Program-made: the position numbers and the translations under genes
Assembly (NCBI GenBank): GCA_913061095.1
Contig: CAJXVM010000011.1
Span: 62,001 to 126,000, forward strand
Source: an uncultured Ignavibacteria bacterium
GTDB taxonomy: Bacteria; Bacteroidota; Ignavibacteria; SZUA-365
Reading direction: 5' to 3'
Length of the DNA: 64,000 bases
The notes under the pieces: generated by a model
What the model was told of the DNA's origin: nothing
Databases searched by the model: none
Seen by the model: only the letters and a program-made list of their open reading frames with translations
Part shown: in pieces, positions 32,526-41,948 of the stretch
How the letters are laid out: the number at the start of each line of letters is the position of its first letter
Position numbering within the stretch: the stretch's first letter is position 1

Positions 32526-32572
32526 CGATATGTTACAGTATTGTATCTGAACGATCCTTTTCGGTGATATCC

Positions 32573-33274
32573 ATGTATTTACTCAGTCTGATCATCATTC
32601 TCAGTTACATCGTCGGGTCCATTCCGACCGGACTGCTTGTCGGACGCTGGTTCAAGGGAATCGACATCCGCAGGCACGGCAGCGGCAATATCGGCAGCAC
32701 GAATGTCATGCGCACGCTGGGATGGAAGCTGGGACTGCTCGTCCAGACCGGTGATATCGCAAAAGGCCTCTTCGCCGTTCTGGTCATCGCGCGCCTGCAT
32801 TACGGTGATTTCCCCTTCACCAACCGCACACCGTTCGACGACATCACCATCGTGCAGATCATCGCTGGCGCGGCCGCGGTCATCGGACACATTTTCTCCG
32901 TCTTCCTGAATTTCCGCGGCGGCAAGGGCATCAACACCGCGGCAGGCATGCTCGTCGGCATCGCGCCGATCGACATTTCCATCGCGGTGATCGTTTTCGT
33001 GATCGTGCTGCTCTCCACGGGCTACGTCTCCCTCGGATCACTCAGCGCGGCCACGGCCTTCCCCACGACCATGTTTATTCGCTTCAACGTATTCAACGTC
33101 GATATACCGAGCTACCATACACTGATTCTTTTCAGTATCGCGACGACATTGCTGCTGTACTACGCCCATCGCTCGAACATTCGCCGGCTGCTCGCCGGAC
33201 AGGAAAACCGCTTCAACCGCGTGAAGCTGTTCGGAAAAAAGATGGGCAGTTCCATGAAGACATTCCTGTTCTGA
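32573..33274 (+). CDS. plsY: Acyl-phosphate glycerol-3-phosphate acyltransferase
   Basis: A 233-residue membrane enzyme that transfers an acyl chain from acyl phosphate to glycerol 3-phosphate, the first step of phospholipid synthesis. The three PlsY motifs are visible: GSIPTGLLVGR..RRHGSGNIGSTNVMR, then FLNFRGGKGINTAAG, and the later LLLYYAHRSNIRRLLAGQENR. About five to seven membrane helices. ATG 32573 is preferred over GTG 32564, three codons upstream. gpsA, which makes its substrate glycerol 3-phosphate, follows on the same strand. Confidence 0.95.
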   Translation: MYLLSLIIILSYIVGSIPTGLLVGRWFKGIDIRRHGSGNIGSTNVMRTLGWKLGLLVQTGDIAKGLFAVLVIARLHYGDFPFTNRTPFDDITIVQIIAGAAAVIGHIFSVFLNFRGGKGINTAAGMLVGIAPIDISIAVIVFVIVLLSTGYVSLGSLSAATAFPTTMFIRFNVFNVDIPSYHTLILFSIATTLLLYYAHRSNIRRLLAGQENRFNRVKLFGKKMGSSMKTFLF

Positions 33275-33349
33275 CAGACGGCGGCCGCATTGGATTTCGT
33301 GCGGGTCCGTCCGGGCCCGCGCGTTTTGTTTTGTCCACCGGGGTGCAGT

Positions 33350-34351
33350 ATGAACATCGGTATTCTTGGTGCGGGGAGCTGGGGAACCACCCTCGCCGCG
33401 CTTCTCTGTGAAAACGCGCATACGGTCACGCTATGGTCGCACGAACCGCGTGATGTGGAGAACATGCGCTCGACACGACGCAACAGCGTGTACCTCCCCG
33501 ACTTCATTCTGCCGGATGCACTGCAGGTGACCGGCGACATCACGGAAGCATCGGCGGAGCGCGACATGCTCGTCATCGCGACGCCCTCGCAGTTCGTGCG
33601 CTCCGTCCTGCAACGCCTCGACGAGCGGCTCGTCCGCCCGGCACTCCTCGTCAATGTCGCCAAGGGCATTGAAAACGGCAGCCTCCTGCGCATGTCTGAA
33701 GTGGTGCGCGCGGTTTTTCCGTCCTCCGAACCCGGACACTACGCCGTGCTCTCCGGTCCCAGCCACGCCGAGGAGGTCTGCCAGAAGCGCCCGACCACCG
33801 TGGTCGCCGCGGCGGAAGATCAGCAGACCACCGACACGGTCATCCGGACATTCATGACAGACAGTTTCCGCGTGTACGGCAGCACGGATGTCACGGGCGT
33901 CGAACTGGGCGGGTCGCTGAAAAACGTCATCGCCATCGGCGCGGGCATCTGCGACGGATCGCAGTTCGGCGACAACACCAAGGCCGCCCTGATCACGCGT
34001 GGCATCGCGGAAATGCGCCGCCTCGGCGCCGCCATGGAGGCGGATCCGCATACGTTTGCCGGACTCTCGGGCCTGGGCGATCTCATCGTCACCACGATGA
34101 GCCGTCACAGCCGCAACCGTTTTGTCGGCGAGCAGATCGGAAAAGGCCGGAAAGTGAAAGACGTTCTCGCGGCGATGTCCATGGTCGCGGAAGGTGTGGC
34201 GACCACCCGGTCGGCGCACGAGCTGGCGCAGCGTGTCGGTGCGGAAATGCCCATCACGCATCAGATGTTCGAAATCCTCTTCAATGACAAGGATCCGATC
34301 AAAGCGACCCGGGAGCTCATGACGCGGGAAGCCAAGGACGAGGTGTGGTAG
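33350..34351 (+). CDS. gpsA: Glycerol-3-phosphate dehydrogenase [NAD(P)+]
   Basis: A 333-residue cytoplasmic enzyme that reduces dihydroxyacetone phosphate to glycerol 3-phosphate for phospholipid synthesis. The Rossmann motif is MNIGILGAGSWGTTLA, the active-site region includes NVAKGIENG (catalytic Lys) and GGSLKNVIAIGAG, and the substrate loop is GDNTKAALITRG. ATG 33350 begins exactly at the Rossmann fold; the longer frame upstream is not conserved-looking. It forms a natural unit with plsY. The giant regulator gene begins 2 bases after, or overlapping, its stop. Confidence 0.96.
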   Translation: MNIGILGAGSWGTTLAALLCENAHTVTLWSHEPRDVENMRSTRRNSVYLPDFILPDALQVTGDITEASAERDMLVIATPSQFVRSVLQRLDERLVRPALLVNVAKGIENGSLLRMSEVVRAVFPSSEPGHYAVLSGPSHAEEVCQKRPTTVVAAAEDQQTTDTVIRTFMTDSFRVYGSTDVTGVELGGSLKNVIAIGAGICDGSQFGDNTKAALITRGIAEMRRLGAAMEADPHTFAGLSGLGDLIVTTMSRHSRNRFVGEQIGKGRKVKDVLAAMSMVAEGVATTRSAHELAQRVGAEMPITHQMFEILFNDKDPIKATRELMTREAKDEVW

Positions 34352-34353
34352 TG

Positions 34354-37300
34354 ATGGATATTGAAGGATATCAGATCGAGAATGCCGTCGGCGAAGGCGG
34401 CAGCGGCGTGGTGTACCGCTCCGTGCGCGAAAGCGACAGACAGCCGAGCGCACTGAAAGTGCTGCGGGGGGTGGATCCTGACATGCGCGACCGGATGCAG
34501 GCGGAATTCCGGCTGCTCAGCCGCCTCGACCACCCCCTTCTCGCGACGGTGCACGACTTCGGCTATACCGGTGATGGCAGGCCGTATTTCGCCATGGACT
34601 GGGTGGATGGACGCCCGCTCTCCGCGACTGACGTGAGAGGCGAGGATGGCAATTTCGATGCCCGGCGCTTCGCCGAACTGGTATACTACATCACCGCCGC
34701 GCTCGAGTACATCCACAGCCGCCATGTCGCCCATGGCGATCTCAAACCCGCAAACATCCTTCTTCCCGATGACGGGAATCCCGACAACCTGCGCCTGATG
34801 GATTTCGGCATCAGCGCGCTGACCGGCGGCGGCAGTGATGACATGGATGCCGGCGGCGGACTCAGCGGCACGATCGAATACATGGCACCGGAAATCATTC
34901 GCGGAGGCACTCCCGATGTTTCCGCCGACCTCTACGCTCTCGGATGCGTGCTCTACGAAATCACCGCCGGGAGGCCGCCCTTTACCGGCGACTCGGCGGT
35001 CGGCGTGCTCAAACAGCACCTCGATGCCGACCTCCCCTCCCTGCCCGAGGACGTCGGCTCCCCCTTCGCGCTCTGGATCACCACGCTGCTGCAGAAACAG
35101 CCGCAGCTGCGCTACCGTTCGGCATGGCAGCTGCACGCACATGCCGCGGAATATCTCGACCGCAAGCCCCTCATCCGCGAAGAGGAAAGCGGACAGAAAC
35201 TGCACCTGCTCGACATTCCGCGCGAGCAGGAGCGCGCCCGCGCGCTGGATGCCTGGAAACAGTCGCGCGAGGCATCGGCGGTGCTTTCGGTCGAGGGACC
35301 GCTCGGCGCCGGCAAGACACGGCTGCTGCGTGACATCGTCACCGATATCCAGTTCGACGGCGGCCGCGTGCTGCGCCTGGAGGTGCGTCCCGGCATGGGG
35401 AACTTCGAGCCCCTGCTGCGCCTGTTCGACCGCACCGTGCCGCGCGGCGCGGATGCACCCGACGACGCGGCGCGCGCACAGCTCGCCATCATTGCAGCCG
35501 CCTTTCCCGGCACGCTTCACGATGTGGAGCCGGCACCGGCAGACGACCTCGACGACGAAAGCCGCCGGCTGCGCATCTATCACGCCGCGGCCGCACTGCT
35601 CTGCGACGTGATCGCGCCCGACCTGCTGGTGATGGACGATCTGCATCTCGCCGATGCGTTCACACGGGATTTCATTCCGTCGCTGCTCGCTTATTTTGAG
35701 GCATACGAACAGGCGGGGATGCTGGTGCTCGCCGGACAGGACAGCACGCATCCCGACGTCCTGCGTCCGGAGGAACACCCGCGATGGCATCGTCTTGACC
35801 TGCCGGTGCTTGCAACAACCGCCATCGCGGAAAACCTTGGCAGCCTGCTCGGCAGCGTCTCTCCGTCATTCGTGGAGGTGATCGCACGGCAGAGCAAGGG
35901 ACTGCCCGGTCGTATTGAGGATCTGCTGAATTTCTGCGTCTCCGAACAGCTGCTCGAACCGACCCCGCACGGCTGGATCGTGCACGAGCGGGAAAACCTC
36001 GGGGGGCTCTTTCCCGAATCCATGGCGCAGATGTACGCCCGTGCGTTGGAACGACTCGGCGACGACACCCGCGGCGTCCTGCGCCTGCTCGCCACCGCCG
36101 TCGTGCCGCTTTCGATGGATGCCCTCACTGCCGTCACCGGACGTGAGGATGACGTCCTTCATGCGTCGCTTGCCGAACTGCGCCGCGCCGATCTGGTGGA
36201 ATCCGCTTACGAAGGATATTACATCGCCCACGACGCAGTGCGCGAAGCCGTGCGTACGAGTGATGACGATGCCGTCGGCGCAGCAAACGCCGATGCGCGA
36301 AACATTCATGCCGCGCTGCACGACGCTTTGCTCGAGTGGTTCCGTGCGCATCCGCCCGAGGTGGATGCGCCGGTGGTGCTCGCCCATCACGCGCTGCATT
36401 CCTCCGAGCCGGCACAGGCCCTCGCACCGCTGCTGGACGCGGCCGCCTACCGTGAGGGACGCTACGATTACGCCGGAGCAGAACGGCATCTGCGCGATAC
36501 ACTGCCGCTGCTTCCCGCCGATGACAACGAGCGGCGATTCACCGTGCTCGAGGGACTCAGCCGCCTGAACAACATTCTCGGCCGGCGTGCCGACGAGGAG
36601 GAATTCCTCGAGGAGATGCTGCTGCTCGCCGCGCAGTCGAATTCTCCCGCGCGCCTGGGCGCCGTGTACCAGAACCAGACCGAGTACTATCTCTCCACCG
36701 CGGAGTTCGACCGCGCCCGCCGCAGCGCCGAGAAGGCGCTCGGCTACTTCTCCGAGGCGGAGGATCCGCGTGGGCAGGCGTACTGTCACCAGAAAATCGG
36801 CTTCGCCGAATACCGCACGCAGCCCGGCGAGCAGGTGCTCGAGCACTATCGCCGCGCACTGGAGCTTTACGCGCAGCAGCAGGCCAACATCGAAGAGGGA
36901 AGCATCCTCATCGACATCGGACTGGTGTACTATTCCATTCTCGAGAATCCGGAGAAGGCGCTGGAGCATTTCCGCGAAGCGGAGCAGCGCTTCGATCGGG
37001 CGGGATACACGCGTGGGCTCATCCGCGCCCGCGGCAACATGGGTGCGCAGTTCTACGCGCTGGGACGCTACGCCGACGCACTCGAGGCCCACGGACGCGC
37101 CAACGAACTTGCGCGTATGCTGGGCGACCGGCGACTGCTGGCCACGAGCTACGGTGCGATGGGACAGTGCGAAATCGCCCTCTGCCGCTACACGCCCGCC
37201 CTTCTGCATCTCGAGGAGGAACTGCGCATCGCCCGCGAGATCAGCGACCGTTACCTGCAGGAAATGTGCCGCGAAAATCTCGGCGAGCTCTACAGTACGC

Positions 37301-39489
37301 TCGGCGCGCACGACCGCGCGATCGCGGATTACGAAGCAGCGATGGAACTGGCCGAAGCCTCCGGCAGCAGCGCCGGCGTCGCGGCCGATCATATCGACAT
37401 CGCCGGCAGCCTGATCGAGACGCGCGACTTCGCCGATGCGGAGAAGCATCTGCGAAAGGCAGAGAGCCTGCTCGAGAAGGCGCAGGACGTCAACATTTCA
37501 CTGCTCCTGCATTACCGCCGGGGCATGCTGCATCTTGTGCGCGCGAAAGACGAGGATTTCGAACCCGCGCTCGCGGCGTTCAACCGCCTCGGGGATCTCG
37601 CCGACCGGCACGGCTTCGATTCCTTCCGCATCCTGGCGCGGTCCTACGCCGGACTGACGCAGCTGCGCCTCGGCCGCACGAACGTGGCCCGCGAGCTTTC
37701 CGCTGACGCCGTGCAGCTGCTCGAGGAGAAAGGCCCCCTCTACGGCGGTGCGCATGACATTCTGTACAATCACGCCGTGATCCTCCGCGCCGCGCGCGAG
37801 TCCGCCGACGCCGACGTGTTCATCGAGCGCGCGCATGCCGAGCTGATGTCCTGCGCCGAAAGCATCACCGACGCACAGCTCTACCGCAGTTATCTCGAGC
37901 AGGTGCGCGTCAACGCGGAGATCGTGCGCGAATACGCCGTGACGCATCGCAGCGAATCCCCGCAGGCCCTGACCGCCGTGCGCGAGCAGAACCTGCGCAC
38001 GCTTTACGACGTGGCGCGGAAGATCAACTCGGTGCTGGATCTCGACCAGCTGCTCGACAATATCATGGACAGTGCGTTGGAGACCATGAACGGCGAGCGC
38101 GGGATGATATTCCTCATCGAACACGAGCAGCTCGTGCTCAAGGTTTCGCGCAACGTGGAGAAGGAAACCATCAGGGATGCGACGGAAATCAGTCTGAGCA
38201 TCCTGCGCGACGTGCTGCACGCCGGCAAGCCGATCATCGTCAGCGATACTTCGCAGGACGATGAATTCAAGCGGCGTGACTCGGTGGTGAACTTCAACAT
38301 TCATTCGCTGATCTGCGTCCCGATGAAATCCCGCGATGAAATCGTGGGCACTGTGTACGTTGACTCGCGCTCTGACGCCCTGAAGGCGATGTCCTTTTCG
38401 GAAATCGACGCCGAATTTCTCGAAGCCTTCGCGAACCTTGCGACCATCGCCATCGAAAACGCGCGCCTGCATCACAAGCTCAAGCAGGAGAACCTCTACC
38501 TGCGCCGCGAAGTGGAGCAGCGCTTCGGCTTCGAAAACATCATCGGCAGCAGCAAGCCCATGGAGAAGCTCTTTGCCGAAACGCAGGCGGCCATCGACAG
38601 CGAGGGCAGCGTGCTCATCTACGGCGAGAGCGGCACCGGCAAGGAGCTGATCGCGAAAGCCATCCACTACAACGGCAGCCGCGGGAAACACCGCTTCGTG
38701 GCGGTGGACTGCGGCGCCCTGCCCGACACGCTGCTCGAGAGCGAGCTGTTCGGCTACAAGCGCGGCGCCTTCACCGGCGCGGTCGCCGACAAGCCGGGCC
38801 TCTTCGAAGAGGCGCATCAGGGCACACTTTTCCTCGATGAGATTTCAAACACCTCCCTCGCCTTCCAGGCCAAGCTGCTGCGCGTGCTGCAGGAAGGGGA
38901 ATTCCGCCGGGTGGGCGAGACGAAAACGCGCATGGTGAACGTACGCGTCATCTGCGCGACCAACCGTGACCTTCAGAAGGAAATCAAGGAAGAGCGCTTC
39001 CGGCAGGATCTTTTCTACCGCCTGAATGTGATTCCGATCACTGTGCCGCCGCTGCGCTCACGCATCAGCGACGTGCCGCAACTCGTGCAGCATTTCATTG
39101 AGAAGTACAACGAGCGGCATGCTTCTGCGGTGGAGGGTGTCTCGGGCGAACTGCTCGAGCATCTGCAGGCGCTGGAATGGAACGGCAACGTGCGCGAACT
39201 CGAGAATCTCATCAACCGCATGATCGCGCGCAGCAGCGAGGCGGTGCTGACCACGTCCATACTGCCGGCGGATTACGCGGGCGGCGCACGGCGAACGGAT
39301 ACCGGCGACGGCGATCTCGAACTGTCCCTGAAAGCCCCGCGGCGGCTCAATACACTCAAGGAGATCGAGAAAGAGCATATCACCTTCGTGCTCAAGCACA
39401 CCGACGGCAACAAAACAGAAGCCGCCAAGGTACTCGGCCTAAAACGCACGACGCTTGTGGAAAAGATGAAGAAACTGGGGATGATGTAG
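34354..39489 (+). CDS. Giant fusion: Ser/Thr kinase - ATPase - TPR - GAF - sigma-54 activator
   Basis: A 1,711-residue cytoplasmic regulator. Residues 1-265: Ser/Thr kinase with glycine loop GEGGSGVVY, K35, catalytic loop H127-G-D129-LKPAN, DFG at 150 and APE in MAPEII, so probably active. About 285-620: AAA/NACHT-like ATPase, Walker A K321 (GPLGAGKTR), Walker B LLVMDDLH. About 690-1190: TPR array. About 1211-1385: GAF domain. About 1390-1630: sigma-54 AAA+ domain with Walker A K1430 (GESGTGKE) and loop GAFTGA at 1471-1476, which contacts sigma-54. C-terminus: Fis-type helix-turn-helix (NKTEAAKVLGLKRTTL). Similar multi-kinase proteins usually end in a histidine kinase; here the output is transcription. 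The start could also be GTG 34351. A sigma-54 promoter lies 100 bases beyond the stop. Confidence 0.93.
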   Translation: MDIEGYQIENAVGEGGSGVVYRSVRESDRQPSALKVLRGVDPDMRDRMQAEFRLLSRLDHPLLATVHDFGYTGDGRPYFAMDWVDGRPLSATDVRGEDGNFDARRFAELVYYITAALEYIHSRHVAHGDLKPANILLPDDGNPDNLRLMDFGISALTGGGSDDMDAGGGLSGTIEYMAPEIIRGGTPDVSADLYALGCVLYEITAGRPPFTGDSAVGVLKQHLDADLPSLPEDVGSPFALWITTLLQKQPQLRYRSAWQLHAHAAEYLDRKPLIREEESGQKLHLLDIPREQERARALDAWKQSREASAVLSVEGPLGAGKTRLLRDIVTDIQFDGGRVLRLEVRPGMGNFEPLLRLFDRTVPRGADAPDDAARAQLAIIAAAFPGTLHDVEPAPADDLDDESRRLRIYHAAAALLCDVIAPDLLVMDDLHLADAFTRDFIPSLLAYFEAYEQAGMLVLAGQDSTHPDVLRPEEHPRWHRLDLPVLATTAIAENLGSLLGSVSPSFVEVIARQSKGLPGRIEDLLNFCVSEQLLEPTPHGWIVHERENLGGLFPESMAQMYARALERLGDDTRGVLRLLATAVVPLSMDALTAVTGREDDVLHASLAELRRADLVESAYEGYYIAHDAVREAVRTSDDDAVGAANADARNIHAALHDALLEWFRAHPPEVDAPVVLAHHALHSSEPAQALAPLLDAAAYREGRYDYAGAERHLRDTLPLLPADDNERRFTVLEGLSRLNNILGRRADEEEFLEEMLLLAAQSNSPARLGAVYQNQTEYYLSTAEFDRARRSAEKALGYFSEAEDPRGQAYCHQKIGFAEYRTQPGEQVLEHYRRALELYAQQQANIEEGSILIDIGLVYYSILENPEKALEHFREAEQRFDRAGYTRGLIRARGNMGAQFYALGRYADALEAHGRANELARMLGDRRLLATSYGAMGQCEIALCRYTPALLHLEEELRIAREISDRYLQEMCRENLGELYSTLGAHDRAIADYEAAMELAEASGSSAGVAADHIDIAGSLIETRDFADAEKHLRKAESLLEKAQDVNISLLLHYRRGMLHLVRAKDEDFEPALAAFNRLGDLADRHGFDSFRILARSYAGLTQLRLGRTNVARELSADAVQLLEEKGPLYGGAHDILYNHAVILRAARESADADVFIERAHAELMSCAESITDAQLYRSYLEQVRVNAEIVREYAVTHRSESPQALTAVREQNLRTLYDVARKINSVLDLDQLLDNIMDSALETMNGERGMIFLIEHEQLVLKVSRNVEKETIRDATEISLSILRDVLHAGKPIIVSDTSQDDEFKRRDSVVNFNIHSLICVPMKSRDEIVGTVYVDSRSDALKAMSFSEIDAEFLEAFANLATIAIENARLHHKLKQENLYLRREVEQRFGFENIIGSSKPMEKLFAETQAAIDSEGSVLIYGESGTGKELIAKAIHYNGSRGKHRFVAVDCGALPDTLLESELFGYKRGAFTGAVADKPGLFEEAHQGTLFLDEISNTSLAFQAKLLRVLQEGEFRRVGETKTRMVNVRVICATNRDLQKEIKEERFRQDLFYRLNVIPITVPPLRSRISDVPQLVQHFIEKYNERHASAVEGVSGELLEHLQALEWNGNVRELENLINRMIARSSEAVLTTSILPADYAGGARRTDTGDGDLELSLKAPRRLNTLKEIEKEHITFVLKHTDGNKTEAAKVLGLKRTTLVEKMKKLGMM

Positions 39490-39498
39490 TTCGTCATT

Positions 39499-39529
39499 AT
39501 TTTGACACTGCGGAGCGATTTTGACGTCA
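39499..39529 (+). promoter_or_regulatory. Candidate activator-binding sites upstream of sigma-54 promoter
   Basis: ATTTTGAC occurs twice with a 19-base period (from 39499 and 39518); the second runs into the palindrome TGACGTCA (39522-39529). They lie about 60-90 bases upstream of the sigma-54 core, where enhancer sites for such activators are expected, and resemble the inverted sites at 32481-32525. Binding by the neighbouring Fis-type domain is inference. Confidence 0.35.
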
Positions 39530-39585
39530 GGATACCGCCGTTGTCACGAAATTGCCGGTATTGTGTCTTACAACCGGGCCAATTT

Positions 39586-39600
39586 TGGCACGAAAATCGC
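39586..39600 (+). promoter_or_regulatory. Sigma-54 (RpoN) promoter, -24/-12 elements
   Basis: TGGCACG (39586-39592), four bases, then TCGCA beginning at 39597. GG and GC are separated by exactly 10 bases, matching the consensus TGGCACG-N4-TTGCA at all but one base. Transcription should start near 39612, about 90 bases before the T9SS protein start at 39702. It is directly downstream of a sigma-54 activator gene. Confidence 0.75.
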
Positions 39601-39701
39601 ATCGTATTAATTGTATATTTAATGCGACTTTAATGCGGCAGCCGTTGCATTAGTGTTTTCCGATCTGTAACTTCGGAGTAATACTTCCGATACGCCTATT
39701 C

Positions 39702-41948
39702 GTGATACGCCATACATACATATTGCTGGTCCTGTTTTTTGCGGCATCGGGTGCGGTGTTCGCACAAACCAGTGCGCTGGAGGATCTGAAAGCCGAGATC
39801 AACCAGGACGGACATGTCGTGCTGACGTGGTCGACGCCGCCGGGGCAGCTGCCCTGGCAGTACCAGATCGCGCGCGGCAATCCGTTCCCCGACAGGATGA
39901 TCGCGCAGATCTACAATCCGACGACGGTGCAGTTCACCGATTATAATGTCGAGGCCGGCGCGACCTACACCTACGGCGTGGCCGCGATTTACTCGGACAA
40001 CAGCTATGTGTCGGCGAATGTTACGATCAAGGTCGTTCCGCCGGCGAACGGACTGAATTTTGTCTCGCGTCCGAGGACGACCGCCATCGTGGGCGAGGAA
40101 TATGTCTATGCTCCCTCGGTGGACGGAAACAACCCCGGGCAGATATCCTACATGCTGATCAACGAGCCCGACGGCATGGTCGTCAAGAACGTCGTCGGCG
40201 GATCGTACATTTCGTGGGTTCCCCAGCAGAAGGGCGAATACAGCATGACGCTGGTCGCGACGAACTGGGTCACGTTTGCACGCGCGATTCAGGAGTTTTC
40301 CATCACCGTCGCCGACGAGCCGGGTTCCATTCAGGGCATGGTCCGTACGCTGACCGGCGATCCCATGCCGGACGCGGAGCTGTCGTTCTGGCAGGTTGCG
40401 CAGAACGGCATGACGATGAAGTTCCACACGGTCAGCGCGGAAGACGGCAGCTTCGAACTCGCGCATGTGCAGCCCGGACGCATTTACGCGTACTGCAAGT
40501 CGCCGACCGACGATTACCAGTCTCAGTGGTATATAAACGGCAAGAGCCTGCGCGACGCGATCGAGCGCACCCTGCGCAGGGGTGAATCCCTTGCCTACGA
40601 GTTTTATCTCATTCCGGATGCCGGCTTCCCCGCTCCTGTGACGGGTCGCGTGACGGACGACCACGGTATCGGAATCGAAGGCGCTCATGTTTCCTTCATC
40701 CGCAAAGAGCATTTCATCCATATCGGCGACACGGCCGGCATCAACAGCACGAGTTTCGAGACACAGCTGAGCTGGCGCTCCTCAGTTGTTGACACCTTTG
40801 TCACTACGGAACTTGACGGACGCTTCCAGCTCAATCTACCGGCCGGCAGTGATTATTACACCTTCGTCGAGCACGACGGCTATCTCGGCACGTTTATCGG
40901 TGACGAGACCAACGCCATGCAGGCCCGGGCGCGGCGCATCCCCAACAACGGGACGGTGCTGAACTACACCCTGCCGGCCACGTCGCGCACGCCGCATCAG
41001 ATCTTCGGCCAGGTGCGCAGCCAGGCATCCGGCACAAGCAAGCAGGCGACGATCGTGCTGATCGATTCGGAGCTGAAGCGCGGCGCCGGCGGTGGACACA
41101 CGTACAAGACGTACAAGTCCATTGTCACCGATTCGCTCGGCGTCTTCCAGTTCCGCAATCTCGCCGAGTCCTCGAGCACCTCCCTGCTCGCCATTCCGAT
41201 GGATCCACGTCTCGCGCCGCAGTACTACCATGAAAACGGCGGCCGGATGAATTTCATCGAGAGCCAGGAGCTGCCGCCGAACGGGACGATACAGAACATC
41301 GACTTCGAACTGCAGGAGACTGTGCGCTCGGGTATCGGCAGCTTCTATGGCAAGGTCGTCCTGCGCCGCGGCATCGATCGCATTCCGCTGCCGGGTACAC
41401 TGGTCATCGCCGAACATGCAGAGACCGGGAGGATCGCCGGTTACGCGATCACCGACAGCACAGGCACATACTCGATCACAGGCATGGAGCCGGAACATTA
41501 CCTGCTGTATGCAGACAATCCCGCCTACAGCTACCGTGTAAACTACAGTACTGCGAAGCCCTCCGAGCCGATGCCGGTGTCGATGACGTATGTCAAATCG
41601 AGTGATATGAGCCGTATATCACAGGTGAATTTCTTCATCGACGATCTGAAGACGGGCACGGGCATTGAAACCAACGTGACACCGGAAACCGTTGCGCTGT
41701 ACCAGAACTACCCGAACCCCTTCAATCCGTCGACGACGATACACTACTCGGTACCGCGCCGTCAGCATGTGACACTGCGCGTGTACTCCGCTCTCGGAGA
41801 GGAAGTGGCCGTGCTTGTGAGCCAGGATGTCGATCCCGGTTTCCACGTCGTTGAATTCGACGCCTCCGATCTCCCCAGCGGCATCTACTTCTACCAGCTG
41901 CAGTCCGACGGTGCCCTGCTCAGCAAGCGAATGATGCTTGTGAAGTAA
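39702..41948 (+). CDS. T9SS-exported multidomain surface protein
   Basis: A 748-residue exported protein starting at GTG 39702, which gives a good signal peptide (IRHTYILLVLFFAASGAVFAQ). A fibronectin-type III-like domain follows (VVLTWSTPP..YTYGVAAIY, about 30-110), then a cadherin/Ig-like segment (PQQKGEYSMTLVATNW) and three or four carboxypeptidase-regulatory-like beta-sandwich domains (GSIQGMVRTLTGDPMPDAEL, TGRVTDDHGIGIEGAHVSF, YGKVVLRRGIDRIPLPGTL). The C-terminus is a textbook type A sorting domain: YQNYPNPFNPSTTIHYSVP up to LLSKRMMLVK. Probably an adhesin or surface-layer component. A sigma-54 promoter lies upstream, so expression should depend on the giant activator or a similar protein. 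A terminator follows. Confidence 0.92.
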   Translation: MIRHTYILLVLFFAASGAVFAQTSALEDLKAEINQDGHVVLTWSTPPGQLPWQYQIARGNPFPDRMIAQIYNPTTVQFTDYNVEAGATYTYGVAAIYSDNSYVSANVTIKVVPPANGLNFVSRPRTTAIVGEEYVYAPSVDGNNPGQISYMLINEPDGMVVKNVVGGSYISWVPQQKGEYSMTLVATNWVTFARAIQEFSITVADEPGSIQGMVRTLTGDPMPDAELSFWQVAQNGMTMKFHTVSAEDGSFELAHVQPGRIYAYCKSPTDDYQSQWYINGKSLRDAIERTLRRGESLAYEFYLIPDAGFPAPVTGRVTDDHGIGIEGAHVSFIRKEHFIHIGDTAGINSTSFETQLSWRSSVVDTFVTTELDGRFQLNLPAGSDYYTFVEHDGYLGTFIGDETNAMQARARRIPNNGTVLNYTLPATSRTPHQIFGQVRSQASGTSKQATIVLIDSELKRGAGGGHTYKTYKSIVTDSLGVFQFRNLAESSSTSLLAIPMDPRLAPQYYHENGGRMNFIESQELPPNGTIQNIDFELQETVRSGIGSFYGKVVLRRGIDRIPLPGTLVIAEHAETGRIAGYAITDSTGTYSITGMEPEHYLLYADNPAYSYRVNYSTAKPSEPMPVSMTYVKSSDMSRISQVNFFIDDLKTGTGIETNVTPETVALYQNYPNPFNPSTTIHYSVPRRQHVTLRVYSALGEEVAVLVSQDVDPGFHVVEFDASDLPSGIYFYQLQSDGALLSKRMMLVK

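Follow-up and report, generated by a model that had tools for sequence, protein, structure and literature searches.

Does a sigma-54 activator control the T9SS surface protein encoded by the very next gene? This question is raised by a locus within a stretch of 64,000 nucleotides (hereafter the window) of contig C11 of a draft genome of 4.61 Mb. The preliminary description placed a TGGCACG-N4-TCGCA element, with a 10-base GG-to-GC spacing, 97 bases after the activator stop codon and about 100 bases before a T9SS-exported protein, and saw in the two genes a self-contained signal-to-surface switch. A motif search of the window indeed identified TGGCACGAAAATCGCA at 39586-39601 on the + strand (TGGCACG-AAAA-TCGCA), with GG at 39587-39588, GC at 39599-39600 and the 10-base spacer that is correct for a -24/-12 site. 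This element is separated by 96 nt from the activator stop codon, which ends at 39489, and by 100 bases from the GTG codon at 39702 that starts the surface ORF, so that the geometry first described stands. Compared with the TGGCAC-N5-TTGC context of sigma-54-dependent promoters, it carries a single mismatch, in the -12 half (TCGCA for TTGCW). For the exact string, 0.00 occurrences are expected in the window, but the string was picked post hoc. The genome encodes one RpoN (9.2e-59) and 13 full enhancer-binding proteins (EBPs). On the basis of the motif and of its conservation, described below, we assign a sigma-54 promoter to 39586-39601, with a predicted transcription start at ~39612.

The activator gene (34345-39489, + strand, starting at GTG 34345 or ATG 34354) encodes a 1714-aa protein that comprises, in order, Ser/Thr kinase, AAA_16, TPR, GAF, sigma-54 AAA+ and HTH_8 parts, all four of the following domains lying on the + strand. 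The kinase domain (34369-35118; PF00069, 1.7e-41) has intact Lys, HGD and DFG motifs, which are kept by every relative having the kinase region. It is followed by a GAF sensor domain (38038-38454; PF01590, 2.3e-20), a sigma-54 interaction AAA+ ATPase (38539-39039; PF00158, 9.1e-70) with Walker A (GESGTGKE) and Walker B motifs and the GAFTGA loop, and a Fis-type HTH (39352-39477; HTH_8), the recognition region of which is nearly invariant within the order. The AAA+ domain, together with the HTH and its predicted binding sites in the ~80-150 bp upstream range, identifies the protein as a sigma-54 EBP. It scored below the cut-offs of the NifA model TIGR01817 (391 versus 528.85) and of the PrsR/PEP-CTERM regulator model TIGR02915 (310 versus 502.6), and a domain search detected neither a receiver domain nor the HisKA/HATPase domains of HstK dual kinases. 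The activator gene begins before gpsA ends (34351), in a plsY-gpsA-activator run (region 32564-34354 of the window), and the glycerophospholipid genes and the activator may be co-transcribed. The plsY-gpsA pair also precedes the activator in seven relatives.

The downstream gene (39702-41948, + strand) encodes a 748-aa protein in which, according to a domain search and a structure model, a signal peptide is followed by a string of Fn3/Ig-like and CarboxypepD_reg beta-sandwiches. It ends in a T9SS type A C-terminal sorting domain (41709-41936, + strand; PF18962; TIGR04183, Por_Secre_tail, 35.7 bits for a cut-off of 23) that is conserved in the relatives. SprA, the T9SS translocon, is encoded in the genome (SprA_N, 1.4e-52), and the product thus has the sequence attributes of a type A cargo, in line with the T9SS export proposed at the outset. 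Its GTG start is matched by GTG or TTG starts in most relatives. The model of the surface protein (mean pLDDT 79) is a beta-sandwich string, and a structure search with it returned only Ig/Fn3/CnaB-like strings (pilin, S-layer, adhesin-like and TIE protein chains) with a global TM below 0.2; such poor global matches do not point to a specific function, and that the protein is most likely an adhesin or a surface-layer protein is a plain guess from the modelled fold.

The gap between the two genes was compared among relatives. When the activator was used to search 148 other genomes, orthologues of ~47-77% identity were found in the genus, the family and the order, and the contigs of 13 relatives reach the activator/surface-gene junction, yielding, with the window, 14 orthologous gaps. 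Loss of the -24/-12 elements from relatives that keep both genes was looked for, but activator, -24/-12 site and adjoining surface homologue are retained in all 13, and the site always lies ~95-125 nt after the activator stop codon. GG-N10-GC is found at the same place in 13 of the 14 gaps, the exception being G012 (TGGCAC...TTTCA), and the strict sigma-54 motif in 9 of 14 (0.1 in shuffles). Linkage, UAS and promoter persist even where activator identity falls to 47%. Within the order, synteny extends over the entire block plsY-gpsA-activator-surface-lipoprotein-ompA-clpP-tig, and therefore the adjacency there counts as one observation rather than 13. Two further records were noted. L175 (PABJ01000031.1, the same contig as G012:C32) has the activator and surface gene of the order and is filed as Ectothiorhodospiraceae; it is the most distant named relative, with 30% in the surface protein, and probably a mislabelled MAG. 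At L065 (G015:C6), the gene after a paralogous activator encodes an Fn3-like surface protein, 25% identical, and the gap contains TGGTACG-TATC-TTGTA; here the activator-surface pair seems, from its sequence, to have been duplicated whole.

Outside the -24/-12 site, the gaps align poorly apart from three blocks: a sigma-A-like element, to which we return, and two putative UAS. Soon after the activator stop codon lies UAS1, a 16-bp palindrome (39492-39507, + strand; CGTCATTATTTTGACA, family consensus YGTCRRNATNYYGACR) that is found in 14/14 gaps versus 0.05 expected in shuffles. UAS2 (39525-39540, + strand; CGTCAGGATACCGCCG, aligned block CGTC....AT...G.C) is a weaker copy 33 bp downstream, about three helical turns away. 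UAS2 is mostly the weaker site across the gaps, although G008 and G011 each contain a further complete match to the UAS pattern. Reckoned from the predicted start at ~39612, the two centers are located at about -112 and -79, in the usual range for EBPs.

The linkage also occurs outside the order. A profile search with the surface protein detected homologues in 73 of the 294 genomes of the class. The named close relatives recovered with the profile are all metagenome-assembled genomes (MAGs), nearly all of them labelled Bacteroidetes/Bacteroidota, and one Chlorobiota. Many of the distant homologues are 5-7 kb away from the top EBP hit of the activator search, and we examined 38 distant loci with a surface homologue near an EBP. 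In 29 of them, a GAF-EBP, a Ser/Thr kinase with a hydrophobic segment and PEGA repeats, an optional kelch-propeller protein with a T9SS tail, a small TPR-like membrane protein and the surface homologue are encoded on one strand. The activator of the window therefore unites functions that are encoded separately in these split clusters, and adds AAA_16/TPR parts that were not found there. Searches with the neighbor genes of the window did not find plsY, gpsA or clpP in the 38 distant loci, indicating that the EBP-surface linkage is not an inherited neighborhood. Shared synteny, real within the order, therefore does not by itself account for the linkage, given these non-syntenic clusters, and EBP, surface gene and sigma-54 sites stay together in distant families as well as in the 13 relatives. 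The sequence [TC]GG[CT]A[CT]-N5-TTG precedes the surface homologue in 23 of 28 distant gaps, versus 0.16 expected, the other five having looser sigma-54 sites, judged by eye. Sigma-54 sites occur before the first surface gene of the split clusters and again before the surface homologue, and in several clusters the first of these two sites touches or runs into the stop codon of the kinase gene.

Other features of the split clusters were recorded. The kelch-propeller protein with a T9SS tail comes directly after the PEGA kinase, for example at L131 4930-6249 and L141 5381-6658. Just 5' of the surface gene is encoded an exported, conserved TPR-like membrane protein of 240-325 aa, which has no Pfam match and carries the motif PGW[DE]Q...GR...KGY.LLGAG (L131 6249-7142, L150 9230-10069 and equivalents). 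At L152 (G274:C295), the GAF-EBP and part of the kinase share one 781-aa open frame, possibly as an independent fusion or through a deletion.

The distant gaps also bear on which protein binds the palindromes. TGCA-N5-TGCA palindromes are present in 23/28 of them (0.9 expected), mostly as two copies 20-21 bp apart, and family f13, with AT-rich genomes, has CGAAAA-N-TTTTCG-like palindromes instead. The type of palindrome follows the recognition region of the adjoining EBP: LGLKRTTLVEKMKKLG pairs with the UAS YGTCRRNATNYYGACR, LGVSLRWLQYRLKEW with TGCA-N5-TGCA and LGVSVRWVQMKLKEI with the f13 palindrome CGAAAA-N-TTTTCG, the last pairing being taken by eye from five loci. This covariation in three groups marks the palindrome as the EBP's own site and provides the best evidence for its predicted binding by the adjoining EBP. 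In a tree of EBP domains, the 14 fused proteins form one group (98%), which joins paralogues and the EBPs of the split clusters (97%) and is separate from most of the genome's remaining EBPs; the branches are long, and two of those remaining EBPs sit inside the fused/cluster group.

The third conserved block raises the question of whether sigma-54 acts alone. A sigma-A-like promoter (39645-39673, + strand; TTGCAT-N17-TAACTT) is located 45 bp past the sigma-54 site and still ahead of the start codon; its -10 resembles the Bacteroidota TAnnTTTG box consensus (PMC9723704). The pattern TTGC[AG]-N18-TAnnTT occurs in 14/14 orthologous gaps versus 0.13 expected; elsewhere in the window it is rare (2 of 28 upstream regions, 0.3 expected), and the call thus rests on conservation. 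Sigma-54 is probably not the sole promoter of the surface gene, as read from these patterns, and since the sigma-A-like promoter is equally conserved, the proposed "switch" may mean a "boost" over a basal level. What was called a self-contained switch therefore holds for the wiring and fails for the activator's own transcription, given the overlap with gpsA, and the second promoter further tempers the term. One may go further and propose that the surface gene is driven mainly by the sigma-A-like promoter, with a sigma-54 contribution that is minor or condition-specific. The -35/-10 pair is present in every orthologous gap, is the nearest to the start codon and would give a 5' leader of usual length. 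However, this leaves the joint conservation of UAS pair, -24/-12 site and activator unexplained, and the distant clusters have sigma-54 sites without an obvious sigma-A site; we consider this proposal unlikely.

A hairpin, TTAATGCGGC-AGCC-GTTGCATTAG (39630-39653, + strand), is located in the predicted sigma-54 leader and overlaps the sigma-A-like -35. Terminator-like, with a weak T run (TGTTTT) and 18 nt beyond the predicted sigma-54 start, it could mean that RNA from this start stops at the hairpin, as a small RNA or attenuated leader, and is not the transcript of the surface gene. Yet the hairpin, also found in G004, is changed or missing in most relatives while the surface gene always adjoins, and in the distant clusters the sigma-54 sites lie 20-190 nt ahead of surface ORFs, which makes such an RNA very improbable as the product of the site; a terminator or attenuator role of the hairpin would concern this genome and G004 and not be general. 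Finally, that the -24/-12 match arose by chance between two unrelated neighbor genes is scarcely credible and was rejected: the relaxed motif TGGCAYN5TNGCW is not enriched in pattern searches of the genome (28 occurrences versus 48 for the reversed control), so that the motif alone is not above chance, but its position and sequence are conserved in 13/13 relatives and recur in non-syntenic clusters.

Does the activator have other targets? The UAS pattern has 24 matches in the genome, and searching the relatives for UAS and promoter at the spacing of the locus gave chance-level extra matches and no second recurring locus. At the pattern-search sensitivity used, no regulon beyond the neighbor gene was found. 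A distinct locus of the genome, G000:C3:99403-99418 (L091, L013), comprises an EBP gene (350-aa open frame), tandem 18-bp palindromes CCTGCGGATTCCCGCAGG 22 bp apart, a sigma-54 site TGGCACAGTTCTTGCT and etfBA, and is a probable EBP-regulated electron-transfer flavoprotein operon; the layout of EBP, UAS pair, sigma-54 site and target thus also exists elsewhere in the genome.

Taken together, these results make it highly likely, as far as sequence comparison can tell, that the locus encodes a dedicated kinase-EBP/sigma-54 circuit controlling a T9SS surface protein. Its regulatory anatomy (promoter, UAS pair, linkage and domains) is well supported at the sequence level, and the activator very probably turns on the surface gene through the paired sites and the predicted sigma-54 promoter; EBP-UAS binding, the transcription start and kinase control of the EBP we infer. 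The activator, whose gene would be expressed last in the plsY-gpsA run, as the overlapping frames suggest, would sense a signal through its kinase, TPR/AAA and GAF parts. Its sigma-54 AAA+ domain would assemble on the helically phased UAS1 and UAS2, loop to the closed complex of RNA polymerase and sigma-54 at 39586-39601 and melt the DNA. The resulting transcript, from ~39612, would encode the Sec- and T9SS-exported beta-sandwich string, the sigma-A-like promoter supplying a basal level and the sigma-54 site an inducible boost. Whether this extends to a class-wide, hitherto undescribed Bacteroidota/Chlorobiota system is a closer call, which we lean slightly towards: a Ser/Thr kinase, not a histidine kinase, would control a sigma-54 activator of T9SS surface proteins, fused to it in this order and as a membrane PEGA kinase with a separate GAF-EBP elsewhere, with site and helix co-evolving.

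The circuit is compact, with one sensor-activator and one surface target, and its predicted elements lend themselves to base-by-base testing. Through both gene fusion and gene order, the split and fused versions tie a Ser/Thr kinase to a sigma-54 activator, and the three helix/UAS pairs constitute a natural experiment on EBP binding specificity. To our knowledge, little is known of the regulation of T9SS cargo genes beyond PorXY-SigP and the F. psychrophilum transcriptome, and searches of the open-access literature turned up no description of a Ser/Thr kinase placed before an EBP with a local T9SS target.

Several known systems share parts of this design. Sigma-54 control of tagged surface proteins is established in Proteobacteria for the PrsK/PrsR/PEP-CTERM regulon (PMC1569441), and an RpoN-dependent PEP-CTERM gene is known (PMC9850573). 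As here, the sigma-54 activator has an upstream motif of its own, -24/-12 sites precede genes for C-terminally tagged surface proteins, and kinase and TPR partners are involved (PMC1569441). PrsR, by contrast, belongs to the response regulators, works with a histidine kinase and has many scattered PEP-CTERM targets, whereas in the window the kinase is of the Ser/Thr type and the EBP of the GAF type, sorting is by T9SS and the target lies next to the activator. Comparable in promoter layout is remFG-sprCDBF of Flavobacterium psychrophilum, which encodes the T9SS adhesin SprB: a sigma-54 promoter comes first, followed by one of another class, and mutagenesis showed that both contribute (PMC9723704). 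The likeness is one of promoter layout, for a T9SS-exported surface adhesin in Bacteroidota; no adjacent activator gene is described there, and the promoter in second place belongs to the SM5 type (TAnnTTGY) (PMC9723704), as opposed to TAnnTTT-like in the window. EBPs of the NifA/NorR/FhlA type have the same GAF, AAA+ (GAFTGA) and Fis HTH order and a UAS upstream of -24/-12, but the GAF-EBP of the window is fused to a 1200-residue kinase-AAA-TPR part and scores below the NifA cut-off. HstK-type dual kinases of cyanobacteria and kinase plus MalT-like proteins likewise begin with a Ser/Thr kinase in a long protein with AAA/TPR-like or GAF parts; the C-terminus of HstK, however, is a histidine kinase, and that of the activator a sigma-54 activator with an HTH (PMC1262709). 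GAF-EBPs, kinases joined to TPR or GAF parts, and the control of tagged surface proteins by sigma-54 are thus already known, and it is their combination that appears new.
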